Positions 6,482-39,997 of a stretch of DNA of 47,149 nucleotides are shown here, piece after piece. The notes beneath the pieces were generated by a model that did no database searches, was not told the DNA's origin, and worked only from the letters and a program-made list of their open reading frames with translations. The stretch comes from Elusimicrobiota bacterium (GTDB taxonomy: Bacteria > Elusimicrobiota > UBA8919): assembly GCA_040757695.1 (NCBI GenBank), contig JBFLWK010000013.1, positions 1 through 47,149 on the forward strand, written 5' to 3'. The position numbers and the translations under genes were made by a program. How positions within the stretch are numbered: the first letter of the stretch is position 1; each line of letters opens with the position of its first letter.

Positions 6482-7079
6482 ACTTACTCGCTTAATTGCT
6501 CAATCGCTTAATCGCATCCGTGCTTACACGCTTGTTGAGATAATGATAGCGGTGGTGGTTTTAGTGCTTGGTTTGATTCCACTGGTGAAACTGATTGGCG
6601 ATGCATTGGTTTCTACAAGCGATTTGGGTTCAAGGAGTGTTGCGAACGAACTTGCACAGGATTTGATGGAAGAGATAAAGCAGCGGAAATGGGATGAAAC
6701 ATCTGTGCTTACTAGTTCTACAACAACACCTTCAGAAATCGGAATTACAGCAGCTGAAGCAGCGCAGGGTGAAACTGCTACCAACAAAACAACTTTTGAT
6801 GATATTGATGACTACAATGTTTTGCAAGACGCAAATGCTGAACACCCGCCAAGAGATGCTTCAAACAACACTCTCTCGCAGTACAGCAAATTTACAAGAA
6901 GTGTCACGGTAAGATATATGACATATACAGATTTGGGTGGAGGAACTGGTAGATTTGATCCAGCAGGTGGCACTACCAATTACAAACAGATTGAAGTACG
7001 GGTCAGTTGGACCTCCGGCGGTGGAAAAACACGAGAAGTAGTACACCAAACAATAATGGCGAACATTGCCAGAAGATAA
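6453..7079 (+). CDS. PilV-like prepilin
   Basis: A 208-residue type IV prepilin-like protein. The class III leader ends at Ala24 in RIRAYTLVEIM, with the conserved Glu at +5 (Glu29) and the hydrophobic helix IMIAVVVLVLGLIPLVKL. The -1 residue is Ala rather than the usual Gly, which prepilin peptidases can tolerate. The following LAQDLMEEIKQRKWDE and the pilus-exposed C-terminal half resemble minor pilins of the PilV/GspI type. The whole leader MKNADYADEKLTRLIAQSLN is encoded by repeats: the 22-base unit, then an octamer YGCTYAAT x3 at 6489-6512. The assignment to PilV rather than another pseudopilin is tentative. Confidence 0.85.
   Translation: MKNADYADEKLTRLIAQSLNRIRAYTLVEIMIAVVVLVLGLIPLVKLIGDALVSTSDLGSRSVANELAQDLMEEIKQRKWDETSVLTSSTTTPSEIGITAAEAAQGETATNKTTFDDIDDYNVLQDANAEHPPRDASNNTLSQYSKFTRSVTVRYMTYTDLGGGTGRFDPAGGTTNYKQIEVRVSWTSGGGKTREVVHQTIMANIARR
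6489..6512. repeat. YGCTYAAT octamer x3 in a prepilin leader
   Basis: CGCTTAAT, TGCTCAAT, CGCTTAAT in tandem. It encodes RLIAQSLN just before the prepilin peptidase site. Confidence 0.75.
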
Positions 7080-7126
7080 GCAAGTACTAAAAAGTGGTTA
7101 TGTTATTAGTGGTTAAGTGATTAGTT

Positions 7127-7495
7127 ATGGGTAAAGTGAAAAACTATACTGATTTATTGGTGTGGCAGAAAAGTATTGAATTAGTAAAGGAAGTGTATAT
7201 TATTACCAAAAGTTTTCCAAAAGAAGAAATTTACGGATTAACAAGTCAAATGCGAAGAGCGGCAGTATCAATACCATCAAACATAGCAGAAGGTTTTCTA
7301 CGCCAACACAAACCAGAAATAATTCAATTTCTATATATTTCACTTAGTTCTTGCGGTGAATTGCATACCCAATTTCTCATTGCTAAAGAATTAAAGTTTG
7401 TAAGTGATGAACAACTTAATCACTTATTCACTAATCACTTGTTTTTTATAGTCAGGATGTTGCAAAATTTAATTAAAAGTTTGAAAAATAAATGA
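7127..7495 (+). CDS. Four-helix-bundle protein (23S rRNA intervening-sequence family)
   Basis: A 122-residue soluble protein with the family signature: LLVWQKSIELVKEVY, FPKEEIYGLTSQMRRAAVSIPSNIAEGF and a C-terminal pair of helices. Members occur inside 23S rRNA intervening sequences or as free-standing genes in repeat-rich genomes; the biochemical role is unknown. Its 3' end overlaps the next prepilin gene by ATGA (7492-7495), implying translational coupling. Both the segment before the gene (7090-7126) and positions 7415-7437 inside it carry the same CTTAATCA-type octamer motif that also forms the next gene's leader. Its position suggests insertion together with the repeats. Confidence 0.9.
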   Translation: MGKVKNYTDLLVWQKSIELVKEVYIITKSFPKEEIYGLTSQMRRAAVSIPSNIAEGFLRQHKPEIIQFLYISLSSCGELHTQFLIAKELKFVSDEQLNHLFTNHLFFIVRMLQNLIKSLKNK

Positions 7496-8622
7496 AATAC
7501 AAAAACTTAACCACTTATCCACTTAACCACTTATTCACTTTTTCTAACGGCGTGACCCTTGTAGAACTGATGGTTGTTGTTGCATTACTTGCAATAATTT
7601 TCTTCCCACTGGTACAGGTTTTTAAGTCATTTTCAAACGCATGGTGGGCTGGTAAGGCACGAATGTCAGTCCAATCAGATGCACGGGATGCAATGTACTG
7701 GTTTGTAAAAGATTTAAAATCCGCATACAGACATTCTGTTGGGAATCTGGTCTCAAACGGCAGGCTTGATTCACCGGGTAGTTTAACTACAAACCCGGAT
7801 AATTGGGATACCTTAGCAGCCGGTGTGGTAGTAGAAAATTCAACATCAACCCGAGGTGTCTGTATTGGTGTTTCCCAAGGAGTTACATATTCTTCAACAT
7901 ATACATTCCAACTTGTAAACGGGGTTAGATATCTCCTATCAGGTAAGATAAGAAATACTGACGCGCCACTTGGAAAGGGAAGAATTGAGGTTATAAATAT
8001 AAGCGGGATACCAGTATATGCTTCAACAGAAACAGACCATACATCCTGGTGGGAAATAGTCACAGCCGATGGAAGTAGTGATGGCACATTCCTAATGGCT
8101 ACAACAGATACTGATTGCATTATCCGATTGTCTAATACTGGTGCTGTGGGCAGTGTAGCATACTTTGAAGATATTTCAGTCGCTCCTAAAAAAGCAGTGC
8201 TGGTTGAAGACCCTGATAAACCTGCTGAAACATGGGCGTGGAAAATCCCATATACAGGCGAGATGACAACTGGAACAGGTTATACATTTTTAACACAACA
8301 GGAAACAGGTGGTAGCGCACCAAGTTTGGCACGCTTTAGAATCCAGTACACAACCGATAGCTCAGGTAAAGAGCGAAAAAGAATCTGGCGACAACAGGGT
8401 AACGAGTTGAACCCATCAACAGGCTGGGAATCTATTGACTACAATCATATTGCGGAGTACTGCACCAAACTTGAAATCGGGTATGAGGTGTCTGATGATT
8501 TACTCAAAGAAAATGGCGCTGATAATGGTATCAGTATACATCTTGAATTCAAACGTTCTGCAGGTGGCTCAAAACTACAGCCATACAGTATGAAAACTTT
8601 TATATATCCACAGAGCCCATGA
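7492..8622 (+). CDS. PilW/GspJ-like prepilin with a large carbohydrate-binding-like insert
   Basis: A 376-residue prepilin-like protein. The peptidase site is Gly20|Val21 in NGVTLVELMVV with Glu25 at +5, followed by the hydrophobic helix VVVALLAIIFFPLVQVF. Residues about 36-75 (WAGKARMSVQSDARDAMYWFVKDLKSAYRHS) and the C-terminal part resemble PilW or GspJ. Between them, residues about 80-242 form a beta-rich block (LVNGVRYLLSGKIRN, GSVAYFEDISVAPK) that resembles CBM4/9-type jelly rolls. This is well above the usual length for minor pilins. The leader NLTTYPLNHLFTF is encoded by octamer repeats at 7506-7537. Start codon overlaps the preceding stop. Confidence 0.8.
   Translation: MKYKNLTTYPLNHLFTFSNGVTLVELMVVVALLAIIFFPLVQVFKSFSNAWWAGKARMSVQSDARDAMYWFVKDLKSAYRHSVGNLVSNGRLDSPGSLTTNPDNWDTLAAGVVVENSTSTRGVCIGVSQGVTYSSTYTFQLVNGVRYLLSGKIRNTDAPLGKGRIEVINISGIPVYASTETDHTSWWEIVTADGSSDGTFLMATTDTDCIIRLSNTGAVGSVAYFEDISVAPKKAVLVEDPDKPAETWAWKIPYTGEMTTGTGYTFLTQQETGGSAPSLARFRIQYTTDSSGKERKRIWRQQGNELNPSTGWESIDYNHIAEYCTKLEIGYEVSDDLLKENGADNGISIHLEFKRSAGGSKLQPYSMKTFIYPQSP
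7506..7537. repeat. CTTAWYCA octamer x4 in a prepilin leader
   Basis: CTTAACCA, CTTATCCA, CTTAACCA, CTTATTCA in tandem, beginning 14 bases after the start codon and ending just before the TTTCTAACGGC that encodes the cleavage site. Confidence 0.85.
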
Positions 8623-8635
8623 GAGGCAATTAAAA

Positions 8636-9196
8636 ATGAAAAATGACGCTTCGCTAAAATTAAAAATTAAAAAACTTTTACCAAGTCGCCAAGTCGCTAA
8701 GTCGCTAAGTCGCTACAGTTCAGGTTTCACACTGATTGAACTGATGATTGTGGTTGCAATTGTAGGACTTTTGATTGCGATAGTTGTGCCTAAATTCGCA
8801 GGTATAAAACAAAAAGCAACCGAAGGCGCAACAAAAGGCGCACTCGGTACAATCCGCGCTAATATCGCTGTCTATCGTGGTGAAAATATGAATACAGCAC
8901 CGGTTCTTATTACAAATGCACCTGCAGTAAATAACTGGGATAATACGATGCACCCTGATTTCAGAAACTTCTGGAAAGGCGATGATACACAACTACCTGA
9001 AAATCAGGTTGGCACACCAATTGCGCCGAGAACTCGCAGATGCTGCTACAATTCTAATATATATGTTTCAACAAGTGATATAACAACGAATGTTAATTTT
9101 GGTCAAGGTGGCTGGTTTTATGGAAATGCGGATGGTGAGATTCTTGTAAATACACCCAATACAGATTTGAAAGGCGAGCACTATACAAACTGGTAG
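8636..9196 (+). CDS. Type IV pilin / GspG-like major pseudopilin
   Basis: A 186-residue protein with a canonical peptidase site Gly30|Phe31 in SSGFTLIELMIVVAIVGLLIAIVVPKF and Glu35 at +5. A spine of KQKATEGATKGALGTIRANIAVYRGENM, typical of GspG and short type IV pilins, follows. The C-terminal globular part has a Cys-Cys pair (RRCCYNS). This is the best major-pilin candidate in the window. The Shine-Dalgarno GAGAGG lies 8-9 bases upstream. The unusually long 30-residue basic leader includes SRQVAKSLSR, encoded by an octamer repeat at 8682-8713. Confidence 0.9.
   Translation: MKNDASLKLKIKKLLPSRQVAKSLSRYSSGFTLIELMIVVAIVGLLIAIVVPKFAGIKQKATEGATKGALGTIRANIAVYRGENMNTAPVLITNAPAVNNWDNTMHPDFRNFWKGDDTQLPENQVGTPIAPRTRRCCYNSNIYVSTSDITTNVNFGQGGWFYGNADGEILVNTPNTDLKGEHYTNW
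8682..8713. repeat. YAAGTCGC octamer x4 in the pilin leader
   Basis: CAAGTCGC twice then TAAGTCGC twice, in tandem. It encodes the basic SRQVAKSLSR part of the leader immediately before the cleavage site. Confidence 0.9.
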
Positions 9197-9421
9197 AAAA
9201 AAGGCAGGTTAAAGGCAGGTAAACGACAGGTTAAAGGTTAAAGGTTAAAATTAAAAACAAAAAAGGACCTGACAGGATTTACAGGATTAAAAGACAGCCA
9301 TAGAAATACACAGAATAACACTGAAAGCACCTGTCTGCCGTCAGGCATGGAAAACCTAACAGAATATTCTGTGATTTTCTGTGAAATTCAGGCTAAAAAT
9401 AAAATTCTGTTAATCATGTCA

Positions 9422-9445
9422 AAATGTAAGCAAATGCTTACATTT
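9422..9445. repeat. 24-base CAAATG-centred palindrome
   Basis: Arms AAATGTAAGCA and TGCTTACATTT pair perfectly around a central AA. Confidence 0.85.
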
Positions 9446-9479
9446 GAATTTTGCTCGTCGGTAAATTTTGGTTTTTCAA

Positions 9480-9497
9480 TTAGGACAAATGTCCTAA
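9480..9497. repeat. 18-base CAAATG-centred palindrome
   Basis: Arms TTAGGACA and TGTCCTAA pair perfectly around a central AA. It is preceded by TTTTCAAT, as is the copy at 30161-30182. Confidence 0.85.
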
Positions 9498-9582
9498 ACC
9501 TGTTCTGAAAAGTGATTCTTTAGGATTAGTTTTTTCTTAATCTCTTACTTTTTACTTGCCGTTAACAGGGAGGCAATTAAAT

Positions 9583-9912
9583 ATGAAAAACCTCAAAAAA
9601 CTATTCACTATTCACTATTCACTATTCACTGCCTCTAACGGTTCTGCACTTGTATTCGCAATGGTAGCGATTCTGTTTTTAGCAGGTGTTGGCTTAACAT
9701 TTATTTTCTGGCTTTCGTCAGAATCACGGCAAACCGGTAAACGACAGGCGGTAACAAAAGATTATTATATTGCAGAAGCAGGCACAGAAAAAGCACTGCT
9801 TGATGTAAAAAATACAGGATATACCTGGCAAAAAGGAACTTCAACACAACAAACTTATATAATCAACGGCGAAAGCGTAACTGTTACAGTTACAAATGTA
9901 GGTGAAGAATAA
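9583..9912 (+). CDS. PilX-like minor pilin
   Basis: A 109-residue protein starting at the ATG preceded by GGGAGGCAA (about 9569-9576). It has a basic start, a hydrophobic helix (GSALVFAMVAILFLAGVGLTFIFWL, residues 20-44) and the motif DYYIAEAGTEKALLD, which matches the AEAG-x-x-x-A region of PilX/GspK-type minor pilins. It lacks the classic Glu at +5. The N-terminal LFTIHYSLFTAS is encoded by four ATTCACT heptamers (9603-9630). It is much shorter than most PilX proteins, so it may be a minimal tip or assembly factor. Confidence 0.75.
   Translation: MKNLKKLFTIHYSLFTASNGSALVFAMVAILFLAGVGLTFIFWLSSESRQTGKRQAVTKDYYIAEAGTEKALLDVKNTGYTWQKGTSTQQTYIINGESVTVTVTNVGEE
9603..9630. repeat. ATTCACT heptamer x4 at a minor-pilin N-terminus
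   Basis: Four perfect tandem copies from codon 7 onward, encoding LFTIHYSLFTA. Confidence 0.95.
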
Positions 9913-9930
9913 TAAAAGAGGCAGATTAAA

Positions 9931-9951
9931 GGTTAAAGGTTAAAGGTTAAA
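9931..9951. repeat. GGTTAAA heptamer x3 (intergenic)
   Basis: Three perfect copies just after a pilin gene. The same trimer occurs at 9229-9249, 24221-24241 and 30009-30029, in each case in spacer DNA downstream of a gene and on the same strand. Confidence 0.95.
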
Positions 9952-9964
9952 AAATAGAGCAGGG

Positions 9965-10741: not shown

Positions 10742-10751
10742 AAAGTGAAAA

Positions 10752-11237: not shown

Positions 11238-11262
11238 CAAATTCATAAAAATTCTTTATAAT
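11234..11262 (+). promoter_or_regulatory. Strong sigma-70-type promoter
   Basis: TTGACA (11234-11239), 17-bp spacer, perfect TATAAT (11257-11262). The -35 box sits over the last codons and stop of the preceding TPR gene. The leader to the next gene is about 135 bases and contains GGAATTT-type heptamer phrases and a TCTGATA/TATCAGA hairpin. Confidence 0.85.
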
Positions 11263-11402
11263 TATAGTGCCAAGTCGATGTAATTGGCGATGCGCTTAAT
11301 TATATCGCTTCTGATATAATTCTATATTAGAGGCTGGTTGTATCAGAAATTTGGAATTTGGTGCTTGGAATTTGAAATTTGCCGTTATATCAGGGGGGAA
11401 TT

Positions 11403-12894: not shown

Positions 12895-13272
12895 ATGGGG
12901 ATTGATTATGGTTTATGGAGTATAGTTTTAGCGATACTTGGTGTCTATTATGCGGTTGATTCTAACCGCAGAACAAACAAAACAATAAAAGAATTTCGGG
13001 AAAGCACACAAGCGTTAATAAAGAGTGAAGATGAACGTGCAAAACAGATTTTAGAAAAAATTGAAAAACATATTGACGAAGGAAACAAACGCACACAACA
13101 GATGATTGATGAAGGTAACAAACGACTTGAAGAAGGCAATAAACGACTTGAAGAAGGTGACAGAAGACTTGAAAAAATTTTAGCACATATTTCTGATAGT
13201 TTTGCGAAAGCAATAGAAAAATCGGAAGTAGCAGGTGCTGGCTATTTAAGAGATAAACAATCAGATAAGTAG
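12895..13272 (+). CDS. Small membrane-anchored coiled-coil protein
   Basis: 125 residues. An N-terminal hydrophobic helix (LWSIVLAILGVYYAV, residues 7-21) is followed by a long charged coiled coil containing near-identical units (DEGNKRTQQMI, DEGNKRLEEGNKRLEEGDRRLE). The same topology, membrane helix then RxxNKxIKE and a coiled coil, is seen in the genes at 26271-26567 and 34494-34814. The start is supported by AAGGAG at 12881-12886. It is followed immediately by the giant exported protein gene. Function unknown; membrane-tethered scaffold is an inference. Confidence 0.75.
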   Translation: MGIDYGLWSIVLAILGVYYAVDSNRRTNKTIKEFRESTQALIKSEDERAKQILEKIEKHIDEGNKRTQQMIDEGNKRLEEGNKRLEEGDRRLEKILAHISDSFAKAIEKSEVAGAGYLRDKQSDK

Positions 13273-13307: not shown

Positions 13308-16300
13308 ATGGCTAAATTTTACAGGTTTATTGACGAACAAGGTAAACGGCACTTAAGTGCCGTTTACAAAACGGACAAAACAGACAAAACGGGAAACAAA
13401 GTCATAAAAAAATGGTTTACTGGGCTTTTACTTTCTCACTTTCTCACTTTCTCACTTTCTCACTTTCTTTTCAGTGCACCCTGGTGGGACCTGCGTTTCA
13501 CCGATGGGAACAACGGCACATATGATACCTCAATTGAAAACATGCTGGAAAGTTACATCTTGGGCTCATCGTCAATGGTATATCTGGCAAACTATTCTAT
13601 ACCATCGGTTGATACGAAAATTACAACCTCTATGAATAACCGTGATAGTGCAGACCTTGATGTAAAATATGTTGGTGATGGTGATGAGGGAAATTATACC
13701 GGTTTACAGGCAGGTATTCCAGCTGTGCTTGAACCTGCAGGCAGTCCTATCATGCATAACAAATTCTTAATTATTGACCCGAACTCATCAACTAAAAGAA
13801 AATTAGTAACTGGAACCGGAAATTACACTTCCGGTGGATGGGGAACACAGGATAACGCATGGCTGACTATCACAGATACCAATATAATAAACAAATATGT
13901 CGCTGAATATAACGAACTATTTGGTGGAACTTTTCACGGTGGGAGTGCAACATCTAATCCGATTACCACTGCAAACGGTATTACGGTTCATACGCTTTTT
14001 TCATCTGAAGACGGTCCGTGGCTTGTTAACAATATTGTTGACACCACAATCCGTGCAGCAACCGAGAGCGTATTTTTTGAGACAACCAGTCATGATCCAA
14101 CAGATACGGGCACGCTTGATTTTGATGAAGCAATCTGGTCTGTTTTAGACGATGCTGAAAAACCAAACTTTTTCTGTGAAGGTGTTGTTAATTCTATGGG
14201 TGGCAATCAACCAACTTTCTCAGGAACCGCACTTACCAATTACAATAATAAAGGTGGTTATATCCGTCAGTCAGCAGAGACATCATATGACAAACACCAC
14301 TTAAAATATGTTGTTATTGATATGGACTGGATCGGTGTTGGCTCTATGAATGCAAACAAATCATCTTCCGAATATATCGGTGCATCAGGCAACGATGAGA
14401 ACCACATTTTTATAAACGATTTCCGTCTTGCAAGAGCGTTTATGAAAGAGTTCTCAAGACATTATAAATTAGATAATACAGTCGGTTCTGTTGACAATTC
14501 TGATGTCACCGAGCCACACGATTGGACAGCACCTGCAGATCCTACAGGGCTATCTGTTACACCTACTGCGAATTCATTTGATGTTACCTGGACAGCACCT
14601 GCAGATCCCGGCGATTTCTCAAGATACTATATTTTTATCTCAACATTAAATACAATCGCAACCGCAAAAAATGAAATTACAGAAGCAGATGGTTCCTTCC
14701 GTGCATCAGTTTTAAGACCTGAAATGCAGAAAAAAGGGCTTACTACAACCTCCGCAACACTCACAACCTATAATGAAGGCGATACACTTGTTTCCGGAAA
14801 AAACTATTATATCGGCGTTGTCTCTGTAGATAAATTCGGGAATGAATCATCAGCACTCACTGGCGGGCCTTATCAACTTGGCGGCAATCAGCCGCCAAAC
14901 AATCCGGCATCAATGGGACAGTATAAATCAGATGGTATAACAGTAATTACAGAAGGCGGGACAACTGATGAATCAACAGTAAATTTCAAAGCAACTATTT
15001 CAGACCCTGATGCCGGGAATGTAAAATTACAGGTAGAAGTGAAACCGACAGCGAGCGCATTTGATGGTACTGGTTTATTAGATTCCGGCTTTGTTGCAAG
15101 TGGCTCTGTTGTAACTTTATCAAGCACTTCTATGCCAAACGATAATTATCACTGGCGGGCAGTAGTTATTGATACCTGTTCTGCAAGTTCTTCATGGCTG
15201 GAATTCGGTACTGCAGGAAACACTGATTTTACTGTGAATGTTACAGGACCCAACAATCCACCAAATGCACCCACAGGTGGAACAACCACGCCTGATGGCT
15301 CTGTTAACTGGATAAATGATAATACTCCACAATTTTCATGGACTTTTTCAGACCCTGATACAGGCGATACACAGTCTGCATACCAACTCACAACCTCAGT
15401 TGGCTACGATACACTCAAAACAGCATCAGCAAGCTCGTCACATACGCCAGCTTCAGCACTTGCAGATGGAAATTATACCTGGAATGTAATGGTCTGGGAT
15501 AATAACGATGCAGTAAGTCCTGTAAGTTCAACTTGGACCGTAAAAATTGATGCCACATCACCTACAACTCCAGCTGGGTTTGATGCCGGATATAATGGCA
15601 CTTCTTCCACACTTACCTGGAGTGCAGCATCAGATGCAACTTCTGGTATAAAAAATTACAAAATTTACAGAGCAACTGTTACCATAACAGATGCAAACAG
15701 AGCAGGTTATTTTTTAGCAAATGATGATGCAACACCGGGCTACACTGACTCAACGGTTCAACTTGGTAAAACATATTATTATGTTGTAACAACTCTGGAT
15801 AATGCCGAAAATGAGAGTTCTGTTTCAAATAATAGACAGGTTATCTGTGGAGTAGCACCAAATCCAGATGACATTGTAATAAACGAGGTATTTCCAGACC
15901 CACCCGGTGCGGATGGTGCTGCTGAACTTGTTGAATTGTACAATAAAGGTAATACATCAGTAAATATAAACGGCTGGCTTTTTGCAGAACGCGGTGAAGC
16001 AGGTGATGGTATCTCTGATTACACCGGTGCACATGATAAAGGACAGGCAGGAACTACTCTTCAACCTGGCTGGTATGCTTTAATTGTTGATAGTGATTAT
16101 GATGGTTCTTACACAACCTGTATAAATGCGCATGCTAATACATCAAACCTGATAATGGTAACAATGTCTGGTTCTTTTGGACTTGCCAACGGTGGCGATA
16201 CTGTTTGGATTTCTACAAAAGATGCGTCAAACAATACCATCATTACCAGTTCGTTCACTTGGTTAAGTTCAACCGCTGGTAAATCCTGGGAGAAAATATA

Positions 16301-24212: not shown

Positions 24213-24265
24213 TAACGGCAGGTTAAAGGTTAAAGGTTAAAATTAAAAGTTAAAGGCAAAAACTT

Positions 24266-26225: not shown

Positions 26226-26230
26226 CGGCA

Positions 26231-26251
26231 ATTAAAAATTAAAAATTAAAA
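26231..26251. repeat. ATTAAAA heptamer x3 (intergenic)
   Basis: Three perfect tandem copies immediately before the GGAGG Shine-Dalgarno (26257-26261) of the small coiled-coil gene. Confidence 0.9.
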
Positions 26252-26270
26252 AAAGTGGAGGTTGGTTTAT

Positions 26271-26567
26271 ATGGAAACAGGTATCGGGTTGGCGATTGTT
26301 GGGGTTTTGTTAAGTTGGGTATGGTACATTAATAACAAGAATAACAACAGGGTAATAAAAGAGATAATTAAAGAGACAACAGAACGAACAGAAAAACTTA
26401 TTAAAGAAGTTGCAGAACGAACAGAAAAACTTATAGTAGAAGAATCTAAATTAACACGAGAAATGCTTAAAGAGCTATTTGAGAAAATGGATACAAGAGC
26501 AGAACAGCGCCATGAAGAAGTTATAGAACTATTAAAGAAAGGTTTTGGTGTAGCAGGTTCACACTGA
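26271..26567 (+). CDS. Small membrane-anchored coiled-coil protein in the pil operon
   Basis: 98 residues from the ATG preceded by GGAGG. An N-terminal membrane helix (IGLAIVGVLLSWVWYI) is followed by NNKNNNRVIKEI and a charged coiled coil with repeated TERTEKLIKEVAERTEKLI, then ESKLTREMLKELFEKM. It is clearly paralogous to the gene at 34494-34814, which shares VWYxNNKxNNRVIKEI and KLTREx4ELxEK. It interrupts the canonical pilN-pilO pair; whether it belongs to the pilus or is a mobile small gene is open. Confidence 0.8.
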   Translation: METGIGLAIVGVLLSWVWYINNKNNNRVIKEIIKETTERTEKLIKEVAERTEKLIVEESKLTREMLKELFEKMDTRAEQRHEEVIELLKKGFGVAGSH

Positions 26568-27133: not shown

Positions 27134-27717
27134 TGAAAACAGAAATTAAGAATTCAGAGATTAAGAGATTAAGAGATTTGGAGATTAGGGAAAAAACCAA
27201 CCCTAATTCCCTAATTTCTATTTTCCTAATTTCTATTCTCTTCTCTCTATTCTCTGCTTCTTTTATTGGTTGCGGGAAGAAGTCAACACAACTGACACAG
27301 ACATCTCAGCAGATTACACCAAGACCGAAACCAAAGATTCCACAATATGTTCCACCACCACCTTTACCAAAATATACTTATACTGGCGGAAAATATCGCG
27401 ACCCGTTGATTCCTGCGGGTGGTAGTTATTCATCATCAATTATCGCAGGTGAAGGTGGCACAGTATTATCAGATGAACAACTCGCTACATTACAACTCAA
27501 AGGAATCTTTAGAGACCCAAAAATAGGCGGTATCGCGTTAATCGCAGATACATCCGGCGGGTCATATATCTTGAAAAACGGGAAATTATACGATAGAAAA
27601 AATAAAATTATACCAAAAGTAGCAGGTGTTATTGGCAAAAATATGGTTACGCTTTTTAGTGATAATACTAAACTGGAATTAAAACTAAGAAAAGGTGGGG
27701 AGGAAAAGAAAAAATGA
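27133..27717 (+). CDS. pilP: PilP-like pilus assembly lipoprotein
   Basis: 194 residues. A long repeat-derived N-terminus precedes the hydrophobic segment and a lipobox-like SFIGC (Cys about residue 49). A Pro-rich linker (RPKPKIPQYVPPPPLP) and the PilP beta domain follow (YRDPLIPAGG, LKGIFRDPKIGGIALIADTSGGSYILKNG, VTLFSDNTKLELKL). PilP links the PilNO inner-membrane platform to PilQ in the outer membrane. Residues about 9-18 are encoded by a GAGATTWR octamer x4 and the hydrophobic part by CCTAATTTCTATT-type repeats. It overlaps pilQ by ATGA. Confidence 0.88.
   Translation: MKTEIKNSEIKRLRDLEIREKTNPNSLISIFLISILFSLFSASFIGCGKKSTQLTQTSQQITPRPKPKIPQYVPPPPLPKYTYTGGKYRDPLIPAGGSYSSSIIAGEGGTVLSDEQLATLQLKGIFRDPKIGGIALIADTSGGSYILKNGKLYDRKNKIIPKVAGVIGKNMVTLFSDNTKLELKLRKGGEEKKK
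27157..27188. repeat. GAGATTWR octamer x4 at the pilP N-terminus
   Basis: GAGATTAA twice, GAGATTTG, GAGATTAG. Translated as EIKRLRDLEIR ahead of the lipoprotein signal. CCTAATTTCTATT-like units follow over about 27200-27240 and encode the hydrophobic stretch. Confidence 0.85.
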
Positions 27718-29996
27718 AAAATTCAAAATTCAAAATTCAAAATTGGTGGCAATTGATTTTACTTCTTACTTCTTGTTTCTTGCTTCTTGCTTCTTCATAT
27801 GCGTCTCAACTAAAAGACATCACTGTAAAATCTGCAGAAAACCAAGATACACTGACTGTATCGGTTTCTTCAAAAACAAAGTTCAATATATTCAGTATGT
27901 CTGAACCAAGCCGACTGGTTATAGAATTAAGCAACTGCGAATACGCAATAACCAGCAAAATAACCGCTGAGACAAGTTTCATAAAAGGAATCCGTAGCGG
28001 ACAGTATCAGGATAAACCTCGAAAAATAGCACGGATTGTTGTTGACTTAAAAAAGCCGGTGCGGTTTTCATCAAAATCAACAAATAACGAAATATCTATC
28101 ACACTTAAAGAAAAAGTTATTACAGATTCATCAGTTCGAAAATCTACTGAAACTGTAAAACCAGAAGTCGCTAAATCTACGAGTGCTGTAGTTAGCAAAC
28201 CTAAACCTAAACCTAAACCAGCGCCTAAAAAGAAAACTGCTACACCACCCCCTACAATTGCAAAATCTACAGAAACTGTAAAGCCAGAAGTCGCTAAATC
28301 TACAATTACCGTCGTTAGCAAACCTAAACCAAAAAAGAAATCTATTACTACAATTGCAAAATCTACCGAAACTGTAAAGCCAGCAGTCGCTAAATCTACA
28401 ATTACCGTCGTTAGCAAACCTAAACCAAAAAAGAAATCTACTACTACAATTGCAAAATCTACCGAAACTGTAAAGCCAGCAGTCGCGGCACCAGCACCTA
28501 CACCCACTCCTGCACCTACACCTGCTGCCAAGCCAGAGGAGATAGTAAAACCCAGCACTGCACCAATAAGTATCGCTAAAGTAACAGAACCGAAAAGGGT
28601 GGAAAAAGTAGAAATCAAACCCAATATACCTGATAAAGAACATCTGGAACTTGTGAAAGAAATAAAGGAAAAAGGAACTGTGCCAATTACACCAACAATC
28701 AGTAAAAAACAGAAAGCAAAAAAGCCAGAAGCAAAAAAACCGACCCAACAGACTCAACCAACCCAACCCACTCTCAAATCCGGTGAATTACCAAAAGACC
28801 TGGTCACACTTGATTTCACAGATGCGGATATAAAGGATGTACTTCAGGTGCTCGCAGTAAAAACCGGGATGAATATCATCTACAGCGATGATGTCACCGG
28901 CACTGTCTCACTCCATCTTGAGAATGTGCCATTTGACGAAGCGATGTCGCTTATCCTTCAAATGAAAGGATTTGTTTTGCAACAGGTTGGCACAAATATC
29001 CTTAGAATAATGACACCTGCAACACTTGCTAAAGAACGCGCAGATGCAGTCCAGGTAACACAGATTTATCAACTGAGTTATGCTAAAGCATCGGATATGA
29101 GCGCCAAACTAACAGCTATTATGACTGCTGAAAACCAGAAAATTACCGTCCAAACCGACGATAGAACCAACAGCGTAATAGTTACATCTACACCGGAAGG
29201 GCTTTTGAGAGCACAAACACTGATAAAGAAGTTAGATGTGAAGCCCGAGCAGGTCTTGATAGAAGCCAAAATTGTAGAAATACAGTTTGAAACTTCAAAA
29301 GATTTAGGTATTGAATGGAACCTTGCAAAAGGCGATATCGCAGGTGGCGATACTTCAGGAATCGGTACCTCTGATAGTGATTCTGTTGATTATGGCGCGA
29401 CTGAGGAAGACAAACGAGAACCTTCAGGTGTAGGTGTTGCAGCACCTTCAGCGAGCACTGTGGGTTCATTTACATTCGGTTATTTCAAAAGCGATATGTT
29501 ATTAACTGCACGGCTGGCTGCTGCGCAAGCCAAAGGTAATGCCAAAGTCCTGTCTCAACCACGCGTCGCAACATTGAATAATATGGAAGCAAAAATTGTC
29601 GTTGGCGACCAGATACCTATCCCGCAAACTACCGTAACAACCGCTGGTGCTACGCAATCTACCACTTACATAACAACAGGAATCCAATTAACAGTAACAC
29701 CAACAATAAATGCAGACGGCAGAATCACAATGAACGTGAAACCAGAGGTTTCTTACGCTGGTGGAGGCACACCACCGCGAATATCAACCCGGAATGCAGA
29801 AACTACAGTGCTGGTAAAAGATGGCGAAACAATAGTGATTGGCGGTATGATAACAGACCAGGAACGAAACAGTATTTCACAGGTGCCGCTGTTAGGCGAC
29901 TTGCCGGTGCTTGGCAGTTTCTTCAAGAATCAGCATAATGAAAAAACCAAAACGGAACTTCTTGTATTTGTAACACCTTACATAATGAAAGAATAA
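27714..29996 (+). CDS. pilQ: Type IV pilus secretin PilQ
   Basis: 760 residues. Order: signal peptide (about 1-31), an AMIN domain (about 34-130; KFNIFSMSEPSRLVIELSNC), a Lys/Pro-rich repetitive linker (about 140-340), secretin N0/STN (about 363-430; VTLDFTDADIKDVLQVLAVKTGMNIIYSDDVTG), an N1 domain (VTQIYQLSYAKASDMSAKL), and the secretin channel (about 595-760; GNAKVLSQPRVATLNNMEAKIVVG, GIQLTVTPTINADGRITMNVKPEVS, ETTVLVKDGETIVIGGM, VPLLGDLPVLGSFFKN). It forms the outer-membrane pore for the pilus. The signal peptide is encoded largely by two heptamer arrays (27721-27741 and 27761-27795). A single AMIN domain is present. Length is typical. Confidence 0.97.
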   Translation: MKNSKFKIQNWWQLILLLTSCFLLLASSYASQLKDITVKSAENQDTLTVSVSSKTKFNIFSMSEPSRLVIELSNCEYAITSKITAETSFIKGIRSGQYQDKPRKIARIVVDLKKPVRFSSKSTNNEISITLKEKVITDSSVRKSTETVKPEVAKSTSAVVSKPKPKPKPAPKKKTATPPPTIAKSTETVKPEVAKSTITVVSKPKPKKKSITTIAKSTETVKPAVAKSTITVVSKPKPKKKSTTTIAKSTETVKPAVAAPAPTPTPAPTPAAKPEEIVKPSTAPISIAKVTEPKRVEKVEIKPNIPDKEHLELVKEIKEKGTVPITPTISKKQKAKKPEAKKPTQQTQPTQPTLKSGELPKDLVTLDFTDADIKDVLQVLAVKTGMNIIYSDDVTGTVSLHLENVPFDEAMSLILQMKGFVLQQVGTNILRIMTPATLAKERADAVQVTQIYQLSYAKASDMSAKLTAIMTAENQKITVQTDDRTNSVIVTSTPEGLLRAQTLIKKLDVKPEQVLIEAKIVEIQFETSKDLGIEWNLAKGDIAGGDTSGIGTSDSDSVDYGATEEDKREPSGVGVAAPSASTVGSFTFGYFKSDMLLTARLAAAQAKGNAKVLSQPRVATLNNMEAKIVVGDQIPIPQTTVTTAGATQSTTYITTGIQLTVTPTINADGRITMNVKPEVSYAGGGTPPRISTRNAETTVLVKDGETIVIGGMITDQERNSISQVPLLGDLPVLGSFFKNQHNEKTKTELLVFVTPYIMKE
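27721..27741. repeat. ATTCAAA heptamer x3 at the pilQ N-terminus
   Basis: Three perfect copies starting in codon 3, translated as SKFKIQN. Confidence 0.9.
27761..27795. repeat. RYTTCTT heptamer x5 encoding the PilQ signal peptide
   Basis: ACTTCTT twice, GTTTCTT, GCTTCTT twice. Translated as LLTSCFLLLASS. The same heptamer in the same reading phase encodes the signal peptide of the PorV-like gene at 34847-34874. Confidence 0.92.
28254..28488 (+). repeat. 96-base tandem repeat in the PilQ linker
   Basis: Units at 28254-28349 and 28350-28445, with a partial unit from 28446; a longer variant precedes 28254. Each encodes about 32 residues of the type TIAKSTETVKPAVAKST then ITVVSKPKPKKK. The length, a multiple of three, keeps the frame. 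Confidence 0.9.
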
Positions 29997-30066
29997 AATA
30001 AGGTTACAGGTTAAAGGTTAAAGGTTAAAATTAAGAAAATATCTGGACTACAACAACAAGTTAATA

Positions 30067-31064: not shown

Positions 31065-31100
31065 ATGTCATTCCCGAATGCCTCTGTCGGGAATCTATTC
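31065..31100 (+). repeat. 36-base palindromic element, copy 2
   Basis: Starts ATGTCATTCCCGAATG and ends CGGGAATCTATTC. It is nested between longer arms, ACCACTGAAGCAC on the left and GTGTTTCAGTGGT on the right, which pair with one mismatch. The apparent ORF MSFPNASVGNLF is just this element translated. Confidence 0.9.
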
Positions 31101-31127
31101 AGTGTTTCAGTGGTTAAAAGAATAAAT

Positions 31128-34477: not shown

Positions 34478-34493
34478 GGACGGAGCAAATTAA

Positions 34494-34814
34494 ATGGAAA
34501 TCGGGTTGAGTATTTTTGGCGTGATAATGGGTTTCGTGTGGTATCTTAATAACAAAAGCAATAACAGAGTTATTAAAGAAATTACACAAAGGACAGAAGA
34601 ACTTATTCAACAAAACCATAAAGAAACACAAAGTTTGATTCAAGAAACTCAAAGTTTGATTCAAGAAATGCGTAAAGAAACCCAAAATCTGATTAAAGAA
34701 GAAGGTAAATTAACAAGAGAATCAACAAGAGAGTTGATAGAAAAAATTTCACTTTTAATAGTGAGTGATGGTGAAAAAACAAGGGAAATCCTCAGAACAT
34801 TAAAACCCGCTTAA
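34494..34814 (+). CDS. Small membrane-anchored coiled-coil protein, paralog of 26271-26567
   Basis: 106 residues. N-terminal membrane helix IGLSIFGVIMGFVWYL, then NNKSNNRVIKEI and a Gln/Glu-rich coiled coil with tandem ETQSLIQ units (KETQSLIQETQSLIQEMRKETQNLIKEE), ending KLTRESTRELIEKISLLIVSDGEKTREIL. Alignable end to end with the pil-operon paralog. An upstream GGAG gives ribosome binding. It lies 8 bp before the PorV-like gene. Confidence 0.8.
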   Translation: MEIGLSIFGVIMGFVWYLNNKSNNRVIKEITQRTEELIQQNHKETQSLIQETQSLIQEMRKETQNLIKEEGKLTRESTRELIEKISLLIVSDGEKTREILRTLKPA

Positions 34815-34822
34815 AGGCTAAA

Positions 34823-35785
34823 ATGAAAACTGTAGAAATTATTCTTGCTTCTTGCTTCTTGTTTCTTGCTTCTTGTCTTTTTGCATCTAACGAAGGCACT
34901 GCTACCGCTACATTCCTGAAATTAGAACAGGGTGCAAAACCTATCGGGATGGGCGGCGCATTCACTGGAATCGCAAATAACGCAGACGGCATATACTATA
35001 ATCCCGCAGGGCTCGGTTCTCTTACTAAAAAAGAGGTCTCAGTTACATATTCCGCAATGTATCAGGATATGATGAGTTCATACCTGTCGTTTGCATTGCC
35101 TACATATAAATTTGGCACCTTCGGGCTTGGTATCACATATCTTACTGTAGATAAAATAGAGAAAACGAATGATGATGGAGTTTCGCTTGGTGATGCAAAA
35201 ATCTCTAATTTAGCCGGCGCGGTTTATTATGCCAAAAAATTAGATATGCTCGCTATTGGCGGCGGAGTGAAGTTTATCCAGCAGGACTACGATGCGGCAA
35301 AAGGCTCAGGACTAGCAGCGGATGTCGGCGGGCTGTTTACAATTGTCAAAGATAAACTATCACTGGGATTATCAGTGCTGAATCTCGGTCCGAAAGCAAA
35401 AATAGGCGATACAAAAAATAAACTGCCACTGATTATCCGCGGCGGTATCGGATTTACGCCAGTTCAGAAACTTACTATCGGCAGTGATTTAGAAAAACCA
35501 AACGATGCAGATATGAAACTGCATCTTGGCGGTGAGTACGCATTCAGCCCGCTAATGTCAGTCCGTATCGGCTATGAAACAATGAAAGATATCGGCGGCG
35601 GCTTAACCGCAGGCGTTGGGATAAAAAACCAACTCGGCGGTGAAGGTGGGCTGGGCGGTGGCGAGAGCTTTTTCGGTTCATCAGCATCAAAAAAAGGTGC
35701 AATAACTTTCTGTATTGATTATGCATATGTGTCATATGGCGAGTGGGAAGCCACACACAGGATTTCCGTCGGACTCCAATTTTAA
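34823..35785 (+). CDS. PorV/PorQ-family outer-membrane beta-barrel protein
   Basis: 320 residues with a signal peptide (IILASCFLFLASCLFAS) and the family signature FLKLEQGAKPIGMGGAFTGIANNADGIYYNPAGLGSL, followed by amphipathic beta strands and a C-terminal aromatic strand (THRISVGLQF). In Bacteroidetes PorV shuttles type IX cargo; relatives in other phyla accompany proteins with Por/FlgD-like tails. It is encoded near such a cargo (31996-34023). The signal peptide is encoded by four GCTTCTT-type heptamers. A Gly-rich insert (GGEGGLGGGE) sits in a loop near residue 274. Confidence 0.88.
   Translation: MKTVEIILASCFLFLASCLFASNEGTATATFLKLEQGAKPIGMGGAFTGIANNADGIYYNPAGLGSLTKKEVSVTYSAMYQDMMSSYLSFALPTYKFGTFGLGITYLTVDKIEKTNDDGVSLGDAKISNLAGAVYYAKKLDMLAIGGGVKFIQQDYDAAKGSGLAADVGGLFTIVKDKLSLGLSVLNLGPKAKIGDTKNKLPLIIRGGIGFTPVQKLTIGSDLEKPNDADMKLHLGGEYAFSPLMSVRIGYETMKDIGGGLTAGVGIKNQLGGEGGLGGGESFFGSSASKKGAITFCIDYAYVSYGEWEATHRISVGLQF
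34847..34874. repeat. GYTTCTT heptamer x4 encoding the PorV-like signal peptide
   Basis: GCTTCTT twice, GTTTCTT, GCTTCTT. Translated as LASCFLFLASC, the same phase and nearly the same peptide as in PilQ. Confidence 0.93.
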
Positions 35786-35836
35786 TAATTTAATTTTTGA
35801 TTAAAGCCACAGAATTTCACAGAAAATCACAGAAAA

Positions 35837-35872
35837 ATGTCATTCCCGAATGCCTCTGTCGGGAATCTATTC
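35837..35872 (+). repeat. 36-base palindromic element, copy 3
   Basis: Identical to copy 2 over all 36 bases, but its outer arms differ: GCCACAGA and CACAGAA upstream pair with TTCTGTG and TCTGTGGC downstream. It lies between the PorV-like gene and the TPR gene. Confidence 0.92.
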
Positions 35873-35908
35873 AGTGTTATTCTGTGTTCATCTGTGGCTG
35901 ATTATTTT

Positions 35909-36517: not shown

Positions 36518-37929
36518 TAAATTTTTTTATTGCAACAACCCTGATAATCTCGCCGTTAATGCGTGCTTCATGGGATTTGTGGGCACAAACAATAATACAT
36601 CTGATAACACTCCTTGCAATTTTAATTTTGATTTTTAAAAAAGAAACCTTTCTACCTTTCTACCTTTCTACCTTTCTACCTTTATTCATATTCACACTTT
36701 TTTGTTTTATATCCATTTTTACTTCGTTCAATTTCTACGAATCCAGAAACGAATTTTTTAATATCTTGAATTATATCGCAATTTTTTATCTTGTAAAATA
36801 TACAGATAAAAAATATATCATACCGCCGGCTCTGATAAGCGGATTGATTCTGGCGTTTTACGGATTTTATCAGAAAATTTTTATAGGCGGAAATATCGCG
36901 TCTTTTATGAATAACCCTAATATCTTTGCCGGCTATCTTGTAGGACTTATATGTCTGACTTTTAGTTCCTTTATCTATAGACCCCAGAGCCCAACCGAAC
37001 AAATGTTCGGCACCGAACACTTGTTCGGTTACTGTTTGCTTATTATTTTTGTAGCGGCGCTTGCGTTGACCGGTTCAACAGCATCTTGGATTTCATTAAA
37101 CTTTGGATTTTTGGTTTTTTGTTATCTAATTAAAAAGCGCCTACCTAAAAAATATATCTATCTCCTTGTTGGAATATCCGTTTTTTTGATTATACTAAAA
37201 CTAAACAGCAGGGATTCGTTTAACAGAATTATATGGTGGCTTACAGCGGGAAAAATGATTTTATCAAAACCTTTTACAGGTGTTGGACTGAATGCTCTTG
37301 CAGATGCCTACCCGAAATATAAATTAAGTGGACTGAATTCTGTTTATGCGCATAATTATTTTTTACAAACTGCCGCAGAAATTGGACTCTTCGGATTTTT
37401 AGCATTCCTCTGGTTTCTTGTAGAAATTTTTAGGCAAACAAAAACTGCTGAAAATAGCTCGTTTTTTGTCGCAATCTCTGCAATGCTTATTCACGGCTTT
37501 TTTGATTATTCATTGTTGATACCGGCAAACGCAATCTTATTATGGGCTTTTTTAGGTATTTGCTCAAGAAAAGAAAAACCTGTTCCAGTAACACTTACAC
37601 AAAACCAAACAACTATTTTTAAATGGCTGGCTGTTTTTTTTGTTTCAGCCGCAATTTATTCACTGACAAAAATCTTTCTGGGTAACCGCGAAACCGCAAT
37701 GGGCAAATACCTGCTTGACCAAAAAAAATATAATACCGCACAACTGCATTTCAATAAAGCATTACAGTATGATAGAAACAACCCGCAAACATATCTCTAT
37801 CTTTCTAATGTTTATCAGGAATACTTTAAACTTACAAAATACTATACATATTTAGACGAAGCGGAAATTGAACTTAATAAAGCAGCAAAGTTGCAGAAAA
37901 AAAATTATGAAAATATCCGAAACAAATAA
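36511..37929 (+). CDS. O-antigen ligase-like (Wzy/WaaL) membrane protein with TPR tail
   Basis: 472 residues with about ten membrane helices and the Wzy_C-type core (ITSTF-like loops, GKMILSKPFTGVGLNALADAYPKYK, VYAHNYFLQTAAEIGLFGFLAFLW) expected of O-antigen ligases or polymerases. The C-terminal 75 residues are TPR-like (GKYLLDQKKYNTAQLHFNKALQYDRNNPQT). It polymerises or ligates surface glycan at the inner membrane. Start GTG overlaps the previous stop. An octamer array (36646-36685) encodes TFLPFYLSTFLPLF, a membrane helix, and two palindromes (36995-37029) add EQMFGTEHLFG in a loop. Confidence 0.87.
   Translation: MVINFFIATTLIISPLMRASWDLWAQTIIHLITLLAILILIFKKETFLPFYLSTFLPLFIFTLFCFISIFTSFNFYESRNEFFNILNYIAIFYLVKYTDKKYIIPPALISGLILAFYGFYQKIFIGGNIASFMNNPNIFAGYLVGLICLTFSSFIYRPQSPTEQMFGTEHLFGYCLLIIFVAALALTGSTASWISLNFGFLVFCYLIKKRLPKKYIYLLVGISVFLIILKLNSRDSFNRIIWWLTAGKMILSKPFTGVGLNALADAYPKYKLSGLNSVYAHNYFLQTAAEIGLFGFLAFLWFLVEIFRQTKTAENSSFFVAISAMLIHGFFDYSLLIPANAILLWAFLGICSRKEKPVPVTLTQNQTTIFKWLAVFFVSAAIYSLTKIFLGNRETAMGKYLLDQKKYNTAQLHFNKALQYDRNNPQTYLYLSNVYQEYFKLTKYYTYLDEAEIELNKAAKLQKKNYENIRNK
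36646..36685. repeat. ACCTTTCT octamer x4-5 encoding a membrane helix
   Basis: Four perfect copies and a fifth imperfect one (ACCTTTAT). Translated as the hydrophobic FLPFYLSTFLPLF near the N-terminus of the ligase. Confidence 0.95.
36995..37029. repeat. Two tandem CCGAACA palindromes inside the ligase gene
   Basis: First: CCGAACA-AA-TGTTCGG (36995-37010). Second: ACCGAACA-CT-TGTTCGGT (37012-37029). The first belongs to the CAAATG-centred family. Together they are translated as TEQMFGTEHLFG in a loop between predicted membrane helices. Confidence 0.9.
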
Positions 37930-39997
37930 ACTATTTGCTATTCACTGTTTGCTATTCGCTGTTTTTCTGCTGACACCTTTTTTTAACGGCTCAAAAGACC
38001 CAACTGCGATTTTTGTGTTTGAGACGGTTGTTTTTATCGTTTTTTTTATCACCATAAACTTTCACAAAATACAGAAAACTTTAATAGATATCCCAATTCT
38101 GTTGTTTTTGATATTCACGGTTTTTTCAACTGCAACTACTTTATACTTGAATTCTTCGGTTAATATGTTATTTCTTGTTCTTTCATATCTAATGTTTTTT
38201 TATTGTTTGATTACTGTTTATAACAAGGTATTTCGTAAATTTTTTTATGATGGGCTTGTCTTGATTTCATTCATAATTTCAGGAATTGTAATACTCCAGT
38301 TTTTTTCTGGCAAAACACCAAAGGCAACATTCCCAAACCCGAATTTAGCAGCTGGATATATTTCTGCAGGCGCATCGTTTATTCTGGCGTTTTTATTTTT
38401 TAGCGAAACCAAACTAAAAACAAAAATTGCTTTTTCTATACTGTTTCTGGCTTTCTGGATTGCAATCGCATTAACGCATTCAAGAGGCGGATTGTTTTCA
38501 TTACTCTGCGGAATTCTGACGGTTTTTTTCTTAAAGTTTAAAAAATGGGGAATATTCATTTTTACCATCGGAGTTTTGATTGTATTCATTTCGCTTCCTA
38601 AAGGAGTAATAACAAATATCGTGAAAATGGATGGCGGTGATGTATACGCTTTCAAGCGATTAGAAATATGGAATGCTGCTATAAAGATAATCAAGGAGAA
38701 TCCTGTTTTAGGAACTGGTCCCGGTAATTTTGAACTTCTATTTTACAAATACAATTTTCCTGCGAATAATCTACTCGCAAAATATGCTAAAATTACACGG
38801 TTCGCACATAACGAATTTTTGCAAATCGCAGCAGAAGGCGGGCTTTTTGCGTTTGCTGTTTTTGTGTGGATATTAATAATCATCATTAGAAGTGCATTAA
38901 AAAGTTCTAATAATTCAGTAGTTGTTTTTGCAGCAATACTCGGACATTCATTTGTTGATTTCAATCTGCATCTGCCTGCTACAATGTTTGTTTTAATTTT
39001 TGCAACCGCTGATATCCTTTACGATACACAAATTGACCCGTATAAATACGAGAACAATTTACCCCGCCCCTATAAGGAGCGGGGTTTACTGAAATTCCTA
39101 AACATTACGAATACTCGTAGATATATTATATTTCTCCTGTTAGCATTATTTGTTTTTAATACGCTAAATTTTTTCTTGAAACCAATTGATGCAGAAAAAT
39201 ACAAAAAATTGGCTGATAAATTTGTTAATACCCAGCCGGAAAAAGCAGTTGAACTTTATAAAAAAACAGTAAAATACTCACCAAACGATTTTGACTATCG
39301 ACGGCAACTTGGCGAATTGTTCTATTTAACCAATAGAAGAACTGATGCGATTGAACAGCTAAAAAAATCAGTTGAATTGAACCCGAACAGCACATTTGCT
39401 ATTATGTCGCTTGCCAAAATCTATTATGATACACAGGAATTTAATAAGGCTGAGTTTTATCTGCTTAAAGCGTTACATAACGAACCTAATTATTTAACTG
39501 CACGGTATTTTCTGGCAATGACAGCCGAAAAACAACATAGATTTCAGACCGCAGAAAAGGAATATCAAAATATTATCTCAATTTACAAATTATTTCAAGG
39601 AACAAGTTCACCATCTATCCAAACTGCCACTACCCTGTCAGGTTATGAAAAAACATTGCTTTCTATTGATATTGCAGATGTTTATAATTCACTCGGCTTC
39701 TTTTATATGAATACTGGGAAATTGCAGGATGCGATTGTTAATTACAATATCTCGTTAGAAATAAAGCCGGTAAATGCAGTTGCATACTCAAATCTGGCAT
39801 CTGTCTATTTTATTGAGAAAAAATATTCAGACGCATTACATTATGCAAACCTTGCAGCATATTACGAACCTGAAGAACCAGCACATCTGAAAAATCTTAT
39901 TTTAATATATCAAAAACTTCATAACGATAGCGAAATAAAACGGCTGAAGAATAAAATAGAGTTTTTAGAAAAGCAAAATTATGTCAAGGAGAGATAA
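37907..39997 (+). CDS. Second O-antigen ligase-like membrane protein with long TPR domain
   Basis: 696 residues from the ATG inside the end of the preceding gene (23-base overlap). The N-terminal two thirds have about twelve membrane helices with the Wzy_C core (AWNAAIKIIKENPVLGTGPGNFELLFYKY-like segment, RFAHNEFLQIAAEGGLFAF). The remainder (about 440-690) has several TPRs (PEKAVELYKKTVKYSPND; TDAIEQLKKSVELNPNS; GKLQDAIVNYNISLEIKP). It is paralogous to the upstream gene with the same ligase-TPR order. The start region KLFAIHCLLFAVF is encoded by a 14-base repeat (two 7-base half-units). Confidence 0.87.
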   Translation: MKISETNKLFAIHCLLFAVFLLTPFFNGSKDPTAIFVFETVVFIVFFITINFHKIQKTLIDIPILLFLIFTVFSTATTLYLNSSVNMLFLVLSYLMFFYCLITVYNKVFRKFFYDGLVLISFIISGIVILQFFSGKTPKATFPNPNLAAGYISAGASFILAFLFFSETKLKTKIAFSILFLAFWIAIALTHSRGGLFSLLCGILTVFFLKFKKWGIFIFTIGVLIVFISLPKGVITNIVKMDGGDVYAFKRLEIWNAAIKIIKENPVLGTGPGNFELLFYKYNFPANNLLAKYAKITRFAHNEFLQIAAEGGLFAFAVFVWILIIIIRSALKSSNNSVVVFAAILGHSFVDFNLHLPATMFVLIFATADILYDTQIDPYKYENNLPRPYKERGLLKFLNITNTRRYIIFLLLALFVFNTLNFFLKPIDAEKYKKLADKFVNTQPEKAVELYKKTVKYSPNDFDYRRQLGELFYLTNRRTDAIEQLKKSVELNPNSTFAIMSLAKIYYDTQEFNKAEFYLLKALHNEPNYLTARYFLAMTAEKQHRFQTAEKEYQNIISIYKLFQGTSSPSIQTATTLSGYEKTLLSIDIADVYNSLGFFYMNTGKLQDAIVNYNISLEIKPVNAVAYSNLASVYFIEKKYSDALHYANLAAYYEPEEPAHLKNLILIYQKLHNDSEIKRLKNKIEFLEKQNYVKER
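37934..37961. repeat. 14-base (2x7) repeat at the second ligase N-terminus
   Basis: TTTGCTATTCACTG and TTTGCTATTCGCTG in tandem, translated as the start of the first membrane helix. Confidence 0.8.

Follow-up and report, generated by a model that had tools for sequence, protein, structure and literature searches.

A contig of 47,149 bases from an uncultured Elusimicrobiota bacterium (GenBank assembly GCA_040757695.1, contig JBFLWK010000013.1; hereafter the window, meaning the whole of this stretch) raises the question of why genes for pilus and other exported proteins should begin with tandem arrays of 7- or 8-base units, and whether such arrays switch these genes on and off or provide the leaders themselves. 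Both possibilities had been put forward in an earlier note on this DNA. Signal peptides are short and tolerant, and the origin of new ones is rarely visible. Our analysis suggests that short 7- and 8-base repeats supply export tags both in this genome and in the majority of the related genera that were examined, as a reused signal and not as an on/off switch.

Arrays are concentrated in export leaders

The genome to which the window belongs (G000; 2.89 Mb in 264 contigs, of which the window is contig 13) is a single assembly from one uncultured species. We analysed stretches amounting to 1.24 Mb of the 2.89 Mb (43%), one part being set aside as a hold-out, and the relatives compared with it belong to genera other than its own. 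Exact arrays (at least three exact copies, periods 2–30) were counted in 847 kb against a third-order Markov control, while arrays were mapped with a tolerant detector, together with a two-state gene caller that was checked against the window. Proteins were labelled as exported by a logistic model on composition (cross-validated area under the curve 0.72), which was limited to residues 61 onward because the array itself contributes hydrophobicity.

The exact census returned 87 arrays at period 7 and 23 at period 8, where the control had 0 and 0, and between 0 and 4 at each other period, about 16 altogether. The tolerant detector found 284 arrays in the 1.24 Mb, at densities of 0.55 per kb in spacers, 0.53 in the first 60 codons, 0.10 in gene interiors and 0.09 in the last 30 codons. 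Spacers shorter than 150 bases carry 1.25–1.67 arrays per kb and long spacers 0.34–0.40, and cytosolic genes such as those for GatB, MoeA, RuvC and CoaE also have internal arrays. Few units are used, and these repeatedly (79 distinct among 199, against 173 expected). A unit of 7 or 8 bases that contains a stop cannot code across three copies, and hence, of the 14 arrays of AAAGGTT (TTAACCT), a unit with TAA in it, 13 are intergenic. Among 295 genomes of the phylum, 7 contain an array of TTTTACC, and five of these 7 belong to the family or order of G000. Long homopolymers are absent from G000, with 0 runs above threshold in the 847 kb and 103 in the third-order Markov control.

Proteins labelled as exported held 70 arrays in codons 1–60 and none in codons 61–120, compared with 16 and 12 in non-exported proteins, and a leader array was present in 55 of 289 exported genes against 16 of 413 non-exported genes (Fisher p = 7.6e-11). 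This comparison of the first 60 codons of exported and cytosolic proteins, here run on the sampled part of the genome, had been proposed in the earlier note, and the excess it looked for is present. The hold-out by itself gave 31 arrays in exported proteins and 4 in the others, once more with 0 in codons 61–120. Within codons 1–35 the density is 2.0 per kb in exported proteins (confidence interval 1.5–2.5) and 0.21 per kb in other proteins; spacers as a whole reach 0.55 per kb. Exported leaders are even somewhat denser in arrays than the densest non-coding DNA, and this despite the coding filter: when intergenic arrays are read as codons, only 34% of the readings lack a stop and 12% are hydrophobic as well. 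The error rates of the classifier lead to an estimated share of array leaders of about a quarter among soluble exported proteins. A candidate explanation in which the array is a 5' untranslated region behind a mis-annotated start was rejected for most leaders, an in-frame ATG lying upstream of the array in 67 of 72.

Boundary, cassettes and unit turnover

On the coding strand, leader arrays are mostly rich in pyrimidines (65:16), and intergenic arrays stand at 35:39 on the plus strand. Peptides encoded by leader arrays include FYLLPFTFYLLPFTCLYA, FIFHFSFFIFHCLYA and LPFYLSTFLP. Since units of 7 and 8 bases are not multiples of three, all three frames of an array yield one and the same periodic peptide, and the array is therefore hydrophobic in every frame or in none. 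Most leader arrays consist of the pyrimidine arm only; in front of many there is a second, purine-rich array of roughly inverse sequence, which codes for the n-region.

Directly before the arrays, when these are read in purine orientation, and at one edge only, stands a boundary sequence, TAA(A/C)GGCA. Its core, TA..RGC, adjoins 33 of the 68 leader arrays of pyrimidine sense (against 3 at the control position), and the corresponding figures are 23 of 93 (5) for intergenic and 2 of 81 (4) for gene-interior arrays. Intergenic copies often start 4–7 bases past the stop codon of the upstream gene; near position 8506 of L042 a TAACGGC boundary and an AATTAAA array adjoin the 3' end of a 16S rRNA. 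Exported genes carry the boundary on the opposite strand, where TGCCTYTAY reads Cys-Leu-Tyr, mostly followed by Ala, Gly or Ser at the presumed signal peptidase site. Of 72 array leaders 33 contain the motif CL[YFH], compared with 13 of 461 further proteins that are hydrophobic at the N terminus, and several of these 13 are decayed arrays; the codons of the motif nearly always have a pyrimidine at the wobble position. Lipoprotein-like leaders have a lipobox-like end in place of Cys-Leu-Tyr (24 of 72). Judged by sequence, then, array leaders have the predicted layout of a Sec signal peptide, with a basic n-region, a hydrophobic h-region and a small residue at the cleavage site or a lipobox.

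Whole leaders are shared between genes. One cassette of 90–108 bp, with 97–100% DNA identity, is found at six places in G000. Five copies (four in L063, one in L053) stand before non-homologous mature proteins, namely lamin-tail, subtilase, UPF0164/Toluene_X and TPR proteins and one without a Pfam match; the sixth precedes a protein that reads, from its sequence, like a LysM protein. Identity runs from near the start codon to near the cleavage site. More generally, 147 of 156 pairs of leaders with similar DNA are joined to mature parts that lack detectable homology. Matches to the cassette number 66 in G000, 82 in G004 and 59 in G005, many of them on both strands at one place, as befits a palindrome, and non-coding palindromic copies in relatives have the same layout as the leader cassette. 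The G005 ortholog of the LysM-like protein retains a decayed cassette, and thus some leaders are also inherited vertically. On two counts, a dispersed family with inverted arms and a conserved terminal sequence, the element fits the palindromic coding repeats that resemble miniature inverted-repeat transposable elements (MITEs).

Between genera the units are replaced. The PilQ leader is built of TTCTTGC in G000, of the octamer ACTTACTC in G004 and of CTACTCG in G006, and is an ordinary leader in G005, G003 and G008; that of the PorV-like protein has TTCTTGC in G000, the 8-mer ACCTTTCT in G004, CTGCTCA/CTATTCA in G002 and no array in G008. PilX-like leaders use ACTATTC in G000, ACTTCCA in G006 and AAAGGTA in G004, and the PilP orthologs of G004, G006 and G007 have units different from those of G000. 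The ortholog of prepilin 8636–9196 has a CGACTTC 7-mer in G006 and no array in G004, and orthologs of prepilin 7492–8622 in both genomes are without one. The array of the first O-antigen-ligase-like protein is confined to G000, being absent from the orthologs in G004, G001, G005 and G003, while the second ligase has a TACTACTTACCAC array in G004 and none in its other orthologs. The GatB loop is absent in G007 and G008 and different in G001 and G002. Altogether, 39 of 40 N-terminal arrays in the relatives' sampled DNA lie within export-like leaders, where the label uses N-terminal hydrophobicity and part of the G004 DNA was picked by pattern hits; the samples of G005, G003 and G008 have nearly no arrays. 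The PorV/UPF0164-like family itself is strongly expanded, with 10–53 matches per genome in G001–G008.

Origin of the leader arrays

We consider it probable, on this sequence evidence, that a dispersed palindromic repeat built of arrays has repeatedly been co-opted as a ready-made signal peptide. Co-option of a repeat family was the second possibility raised in the earlier note, and it gains from the enrichment obtained with a leader-independent label, from the boundary common to intergenic and leader arrays and from the same leader DNA before unrelated proteins. The arrays would be copies or remnants of a quasi-palindromic family made of 7/8-base tandem units. In a complete element the boundary TAA(A/C)GGCA would be followed by a purine-rich array and, across a short spacer, by a pyrimidine-rich array quasi-inverse to the first, often with an inverted boundary, (T)GCCTYTA. 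Copies outside genes would mostly occupy intergenic spacers. Copies at gene starts, when read from the ATG, would encode a Sec-type signal peptide, with an n-region rich in Lys/Arg from the purine arm, an h-region of Leu/Phe/Ser/Tyr from the pyrimidine arm and, from the inverted boundary, Cys-Leu-Tyr-(Ala/Gly/Ser) immediately before the presumed cleavage site. Because the periodic peptide is identical in all frames, only the junction with the mature protein must be in frame, which would make arrays easy export tags. Leaders would change through turnover of units in place and through the copying of whole cassettes between genes, and copies in cytosolic genes would persist only in loops and termini. 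Such leaders presumably work in export and are presumably kept by selection rather than by biased insertion. More tentatively, the element may be a mobile signal-peptide cassette, insertion or gene conversion at a gene start recruiting a protein for export or re-tagging it, with leaders shuffled and units rewritten as lineages diverge.

Several observations count against co-option. The density of arrays in leaders only modestly exceeds that of short spacers, and permissiveness therefore explains part of it. Only half of leader arrays have the boundary, the share among intergenic arrays being a quarter to a third, and the motif is sparse beyond G000 and G004, so that many arrays may arise without the element; part of the sharing of leaders could, moreover, be convergence from common unit sequences. 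Both the gene caller and the export classifier were home-made, and a test of N-terminal hydrophobicity is by itself circular for array leaders. As to how the DNA would spread, six Y1_Tnp (RAYT/IS200-like) genes occur in G000 (in C20, C133, C92 and three in C2), and such genes are found in G001–G007 and G011 and are absent from G008–G010 and G012; around those examined there were no flanking copies or arrays of the element and no inverted repeats, and G001 has 7 Y1_Tnp genes yet a single cassette match. The link to a Y1/RAYT transposase is thus only a lead, and no transposase is tied to the element.

It is unlikely, in our judgement, that the arrays reflect neutral tolerance alone, whereby 7/8-base expansions born of slippage survive wherever constraint is weak (spacers, protein loops and hydrophobic leaders), without any element or co-option. 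Such an account agrees with the dominance of periods 7 and 8 across the whole genome, with arrays in gene interiors and at 1.25–1.67 per kb in short spacers, with the near restriction of the stop-containing unit AAAGGTT to spacers (13 of 14), and with the over-representation of heptamer repeats that is reported for many bacteria, for which polymerase slippage has been cited as an explanation (PMC4692102). It would nevertheless predict far fewer arrays in leaders than in spacers, given the 34% of readings that are stop-free and the 12% that are also hydrophobic, yet leaders hold more. Local slippage also fails to account for units that are few and common to many arrays (79 distinct among 199, where 173 were expected), or for the boundary motif and the near-identical cassettes before unrelated genes. 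Neutral tolerance remains the likely source of single arrays that have no boundary.

Less probable still are contingency loci, in which slipped-strand mispairing would alter the number of units, shift the frame and switch exported proteins ON and OFF, perhaps as the coordinated phase-variable surface system that the earlier note had envisaged. The layout, with units not divisible by three between the start codon and the mature protein, is that of opa. One leader, L029, is clearly out of frame before an intact outer membrane efflux gene (PF02321), with the kind of break that slippage would leave, and there must therefore have been at least one event of slippage or one error of assembly; L046 is a doubtful second case, and in L015 (1222–1303, minus strand) a second, downstream array shares the frame of the gene while the CLY reading does not, as if the frame had been rewritten. 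Even so, around 70 of 74 leaders are in frame, only 1–2 of the approximately 74 being out of frame, whereas free switching would put two thirds out of frame (P = 5e-32). Contingency loci usually have longer, pure arrays, and the leader arrays are short (median 4.6 copies) and 53% of them impure. Arrays of equal length lie in essential or conserved cytosolic genes, which would be heavily burdened by rates of the contingency type (for opa, ~1e-3 per generation). Furthermore, the identity and even the length of units differ between genera, and genera without leader arrays retain the genes, orthologous leaders in genus g4 and in G008 having none. The coordinated switch is accordingly rejected as the main explanation, although slow or rare slippage may still take place.

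A function in the nucleic acid, with inverted arrays near starts acting as mRNA hairpins or regulatory sites and the coded leader a by-product, seems very improbable: the purine and pyrimidine arms do pair in two tested leaders (L052, z -4.8; L036, z -3.6) and intergenic copies often begin shortly beyond a stop codon, but in four other tested sequences, among them the L063 cassette and two leaders of the window, folding does not surpass that of shuffles, most leader arrays have no purine arm, and the enrichment tracks export class and strand, as expected for a peptide effect. The RNA hairpin as a general function was rejected, most of the tested leaders folding like shuffles.

The window and comparable systems

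All the arrays listed in the earlier note were recovered in the window, though several are imperfect and that of the first prepilin (6483–6515) is weak; the coding arrays are all in frame, as had been claimed. The gene calls likewise agree with our reanalysis, in which PF07963 matches the three prepilins (the first slightly under the cut-off), Secretin and AMIN match PilQ and Wzy_C matches both ligases. At the threshold of the detector the window has 9 N-terminal, 6 intergenic and 2 internal arrays, so that leaders are the commonest site but not the sole one. Those missing from the earlier list are in GatB and MoeA, both purer than most leader arrays, and in six spacers (starting at 9228, 9926, 10733, 24220, 26230 and 30001), and the finding in the window therefore belongs to a genome-wide phenomenon. 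An Rfam search of the window gave no match.

Table 1. Arrays in the window, with position, strand and quality of match.
Feature	Position	Strand	Remarks
Imperfect octamer array, leader of prepilin 6453–7079	6483..6515	+	80% match, below array threshold; N_methyl motif
Octamer array ACTTAACC/ACTTATCC, leader of prepilin 7492–8622	7505..7540	+	85–95% match
Octamer array AAGTCGCT, leader of prepilin 8636–9196	8681..8715	+	96% match in 8683–8715
Heptamer array ACTATTC, leader of PilX-like protein 9583–9912	9600..9630	+	4.4 pure copies
Octamer array ACTTTCTC, predicted hydrophobic core of leader, giant PLD/LTD/fn3 protein 13308–24212	13430..13468	+	4.9 pure copies
Imperfect octamer array, of which 27152–27178 encodes n-region ahead of lipoprotein-like PilP leader	27141..27187	+	82% match
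Purine-rich heptamer array AAAATTC, PilQ n-region	27710..27744	+	3.9 pure copies in 27718–27744
Pyrimidine-rich heptamer array TTCTTGC, PilQ h-region	27759..27795	+	88% match
Heptamer array TTCTTGC with TGTCTTTTTGCA tail, PorV/UPF0164-like leader	34842..34875	+	82% match
Octamer array ACCTTTCT, early membrane helix of first O-antigen-ligase-like protein	36646..36683	+	4.8 pure copies
14-mer/7-mer array (GCTATTC-type), first membrane segment of second ligase-like protein	37930..37964	+	14-mer 90% match
Heptamer array TCCAATC, internal loop of cytosolic GatB	1990..2024	-	Outside any export signal
Heptamer array AAGTCCG within MoeA-like gene	3501..3532	+	
Intergenic AGGTTAA array	24220..24241	+	TAACGGC immediately before; just past stop codon of giant gene
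Intergenic AATTAAA array	26230..26252	+	TAACGGC immediately before
Intergenic AGGTTAA array	9228..9249	+	AAAGGCAGG boundary
Intergenic AGGTTAA array	30001..30029	+	4 bases past pilQ stop codon

Repeats of other kinds are also present. In the PilQ linker (28252–28486) lies a tandem repeat with a 96-base unit (97% match), a length divisible by three, which codes for a Pro/Lys-rich segment, and three small membrane-anchored coiled-coil proteins (12895–13272, 26271–26567 and 34494–34814) have internal repeats of 21/33 bases. A second dispersed palindromic element, with core ATGTCATTCCCGAATGCCTCTGTCGGGAATC and inverted flanks of CACAGAA type, is found at 35808–35900, 31066–31110 and 5800–5814 (minus strand); a TPR gene (35837) and a small open reading frame (31065) are called as starting at its ATG.

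The genome seems to draw signal peptides from a repeat family, one leader DNA standing on unrelated proteins and differing units on one protein in sister genera, and the birth, exchange and turnover of targeting signals thereby become directly measurable. A caution follows for annotation, in that an array of non-triplet units in a leader is not automatically a phase-variation switch. In Neisseria, CTCTT repeats within the leader-coding region of opa switch at ~1e-3 (PMC3960869). The arrays described here resemble these in placing tandem units not divisible by three inside leader-coding sequence, but opa involves one unit, one gene family and known switching, whereas here there are many units, in some 4–5 often impure copies, mostly in frame and replaced between genera.

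In Xanthomonas and Nostoc heptamer repeats (GGGAATC, GGGGATT), and in Beggiatoaceae TAACTGA repeats, are distributed genome-wide, many of them intergenic and close to gene ends (PMC4692102, PMC4679880), as are many of the arrays in G000. Those systems have one dominant unit, have attracted G-quadruplex or regulatory proposals and are under-represented on the coding strand; G000 has many units and, in leaders, a coding role. The tandem repeats of Borgs are likewise genome-specific, fast-evolving and enriched in proteins with signal peptides (PMC9879509), but their genic units are divisible by three and form disordered regions, whereas units of 7 and 8 here form the leader itself.

The closest parallels are coding palindromic elements. 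Rickettsia palindromic elements (RPEs) are dispersed repeats of ~100–150 bp found both in spacers and in frame within protein genes, including those of conserved enzymes (PMC10969869, PMC2229807), and the element of G000 shares with them its palindromic, dispersed nature and its intergenic and in-frame coding copies. The insertions described for RPEs are in frame within unrelated metabolic genes, whereas the coding copies here cluster within codons 1–35 of exported proteins and, unlike RPEs, are built of 7/8-base tandem units replaced between genera. The RU-2/YPAL element of Yersinia, in YPO1552, concerns few loci, compared with about 72 leaders in 43% of the present genome and near-identical cassettes on several unrelated proteins. 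On the best reading of these analogies, G000 would represent a genome-scale variant of coding MITE-like elements such as the Rickettsia RPE and Yersinia RU-2, from which it departs in its scale, its concentration in leaders and its construction from tandem 7/8-base units that turn over.

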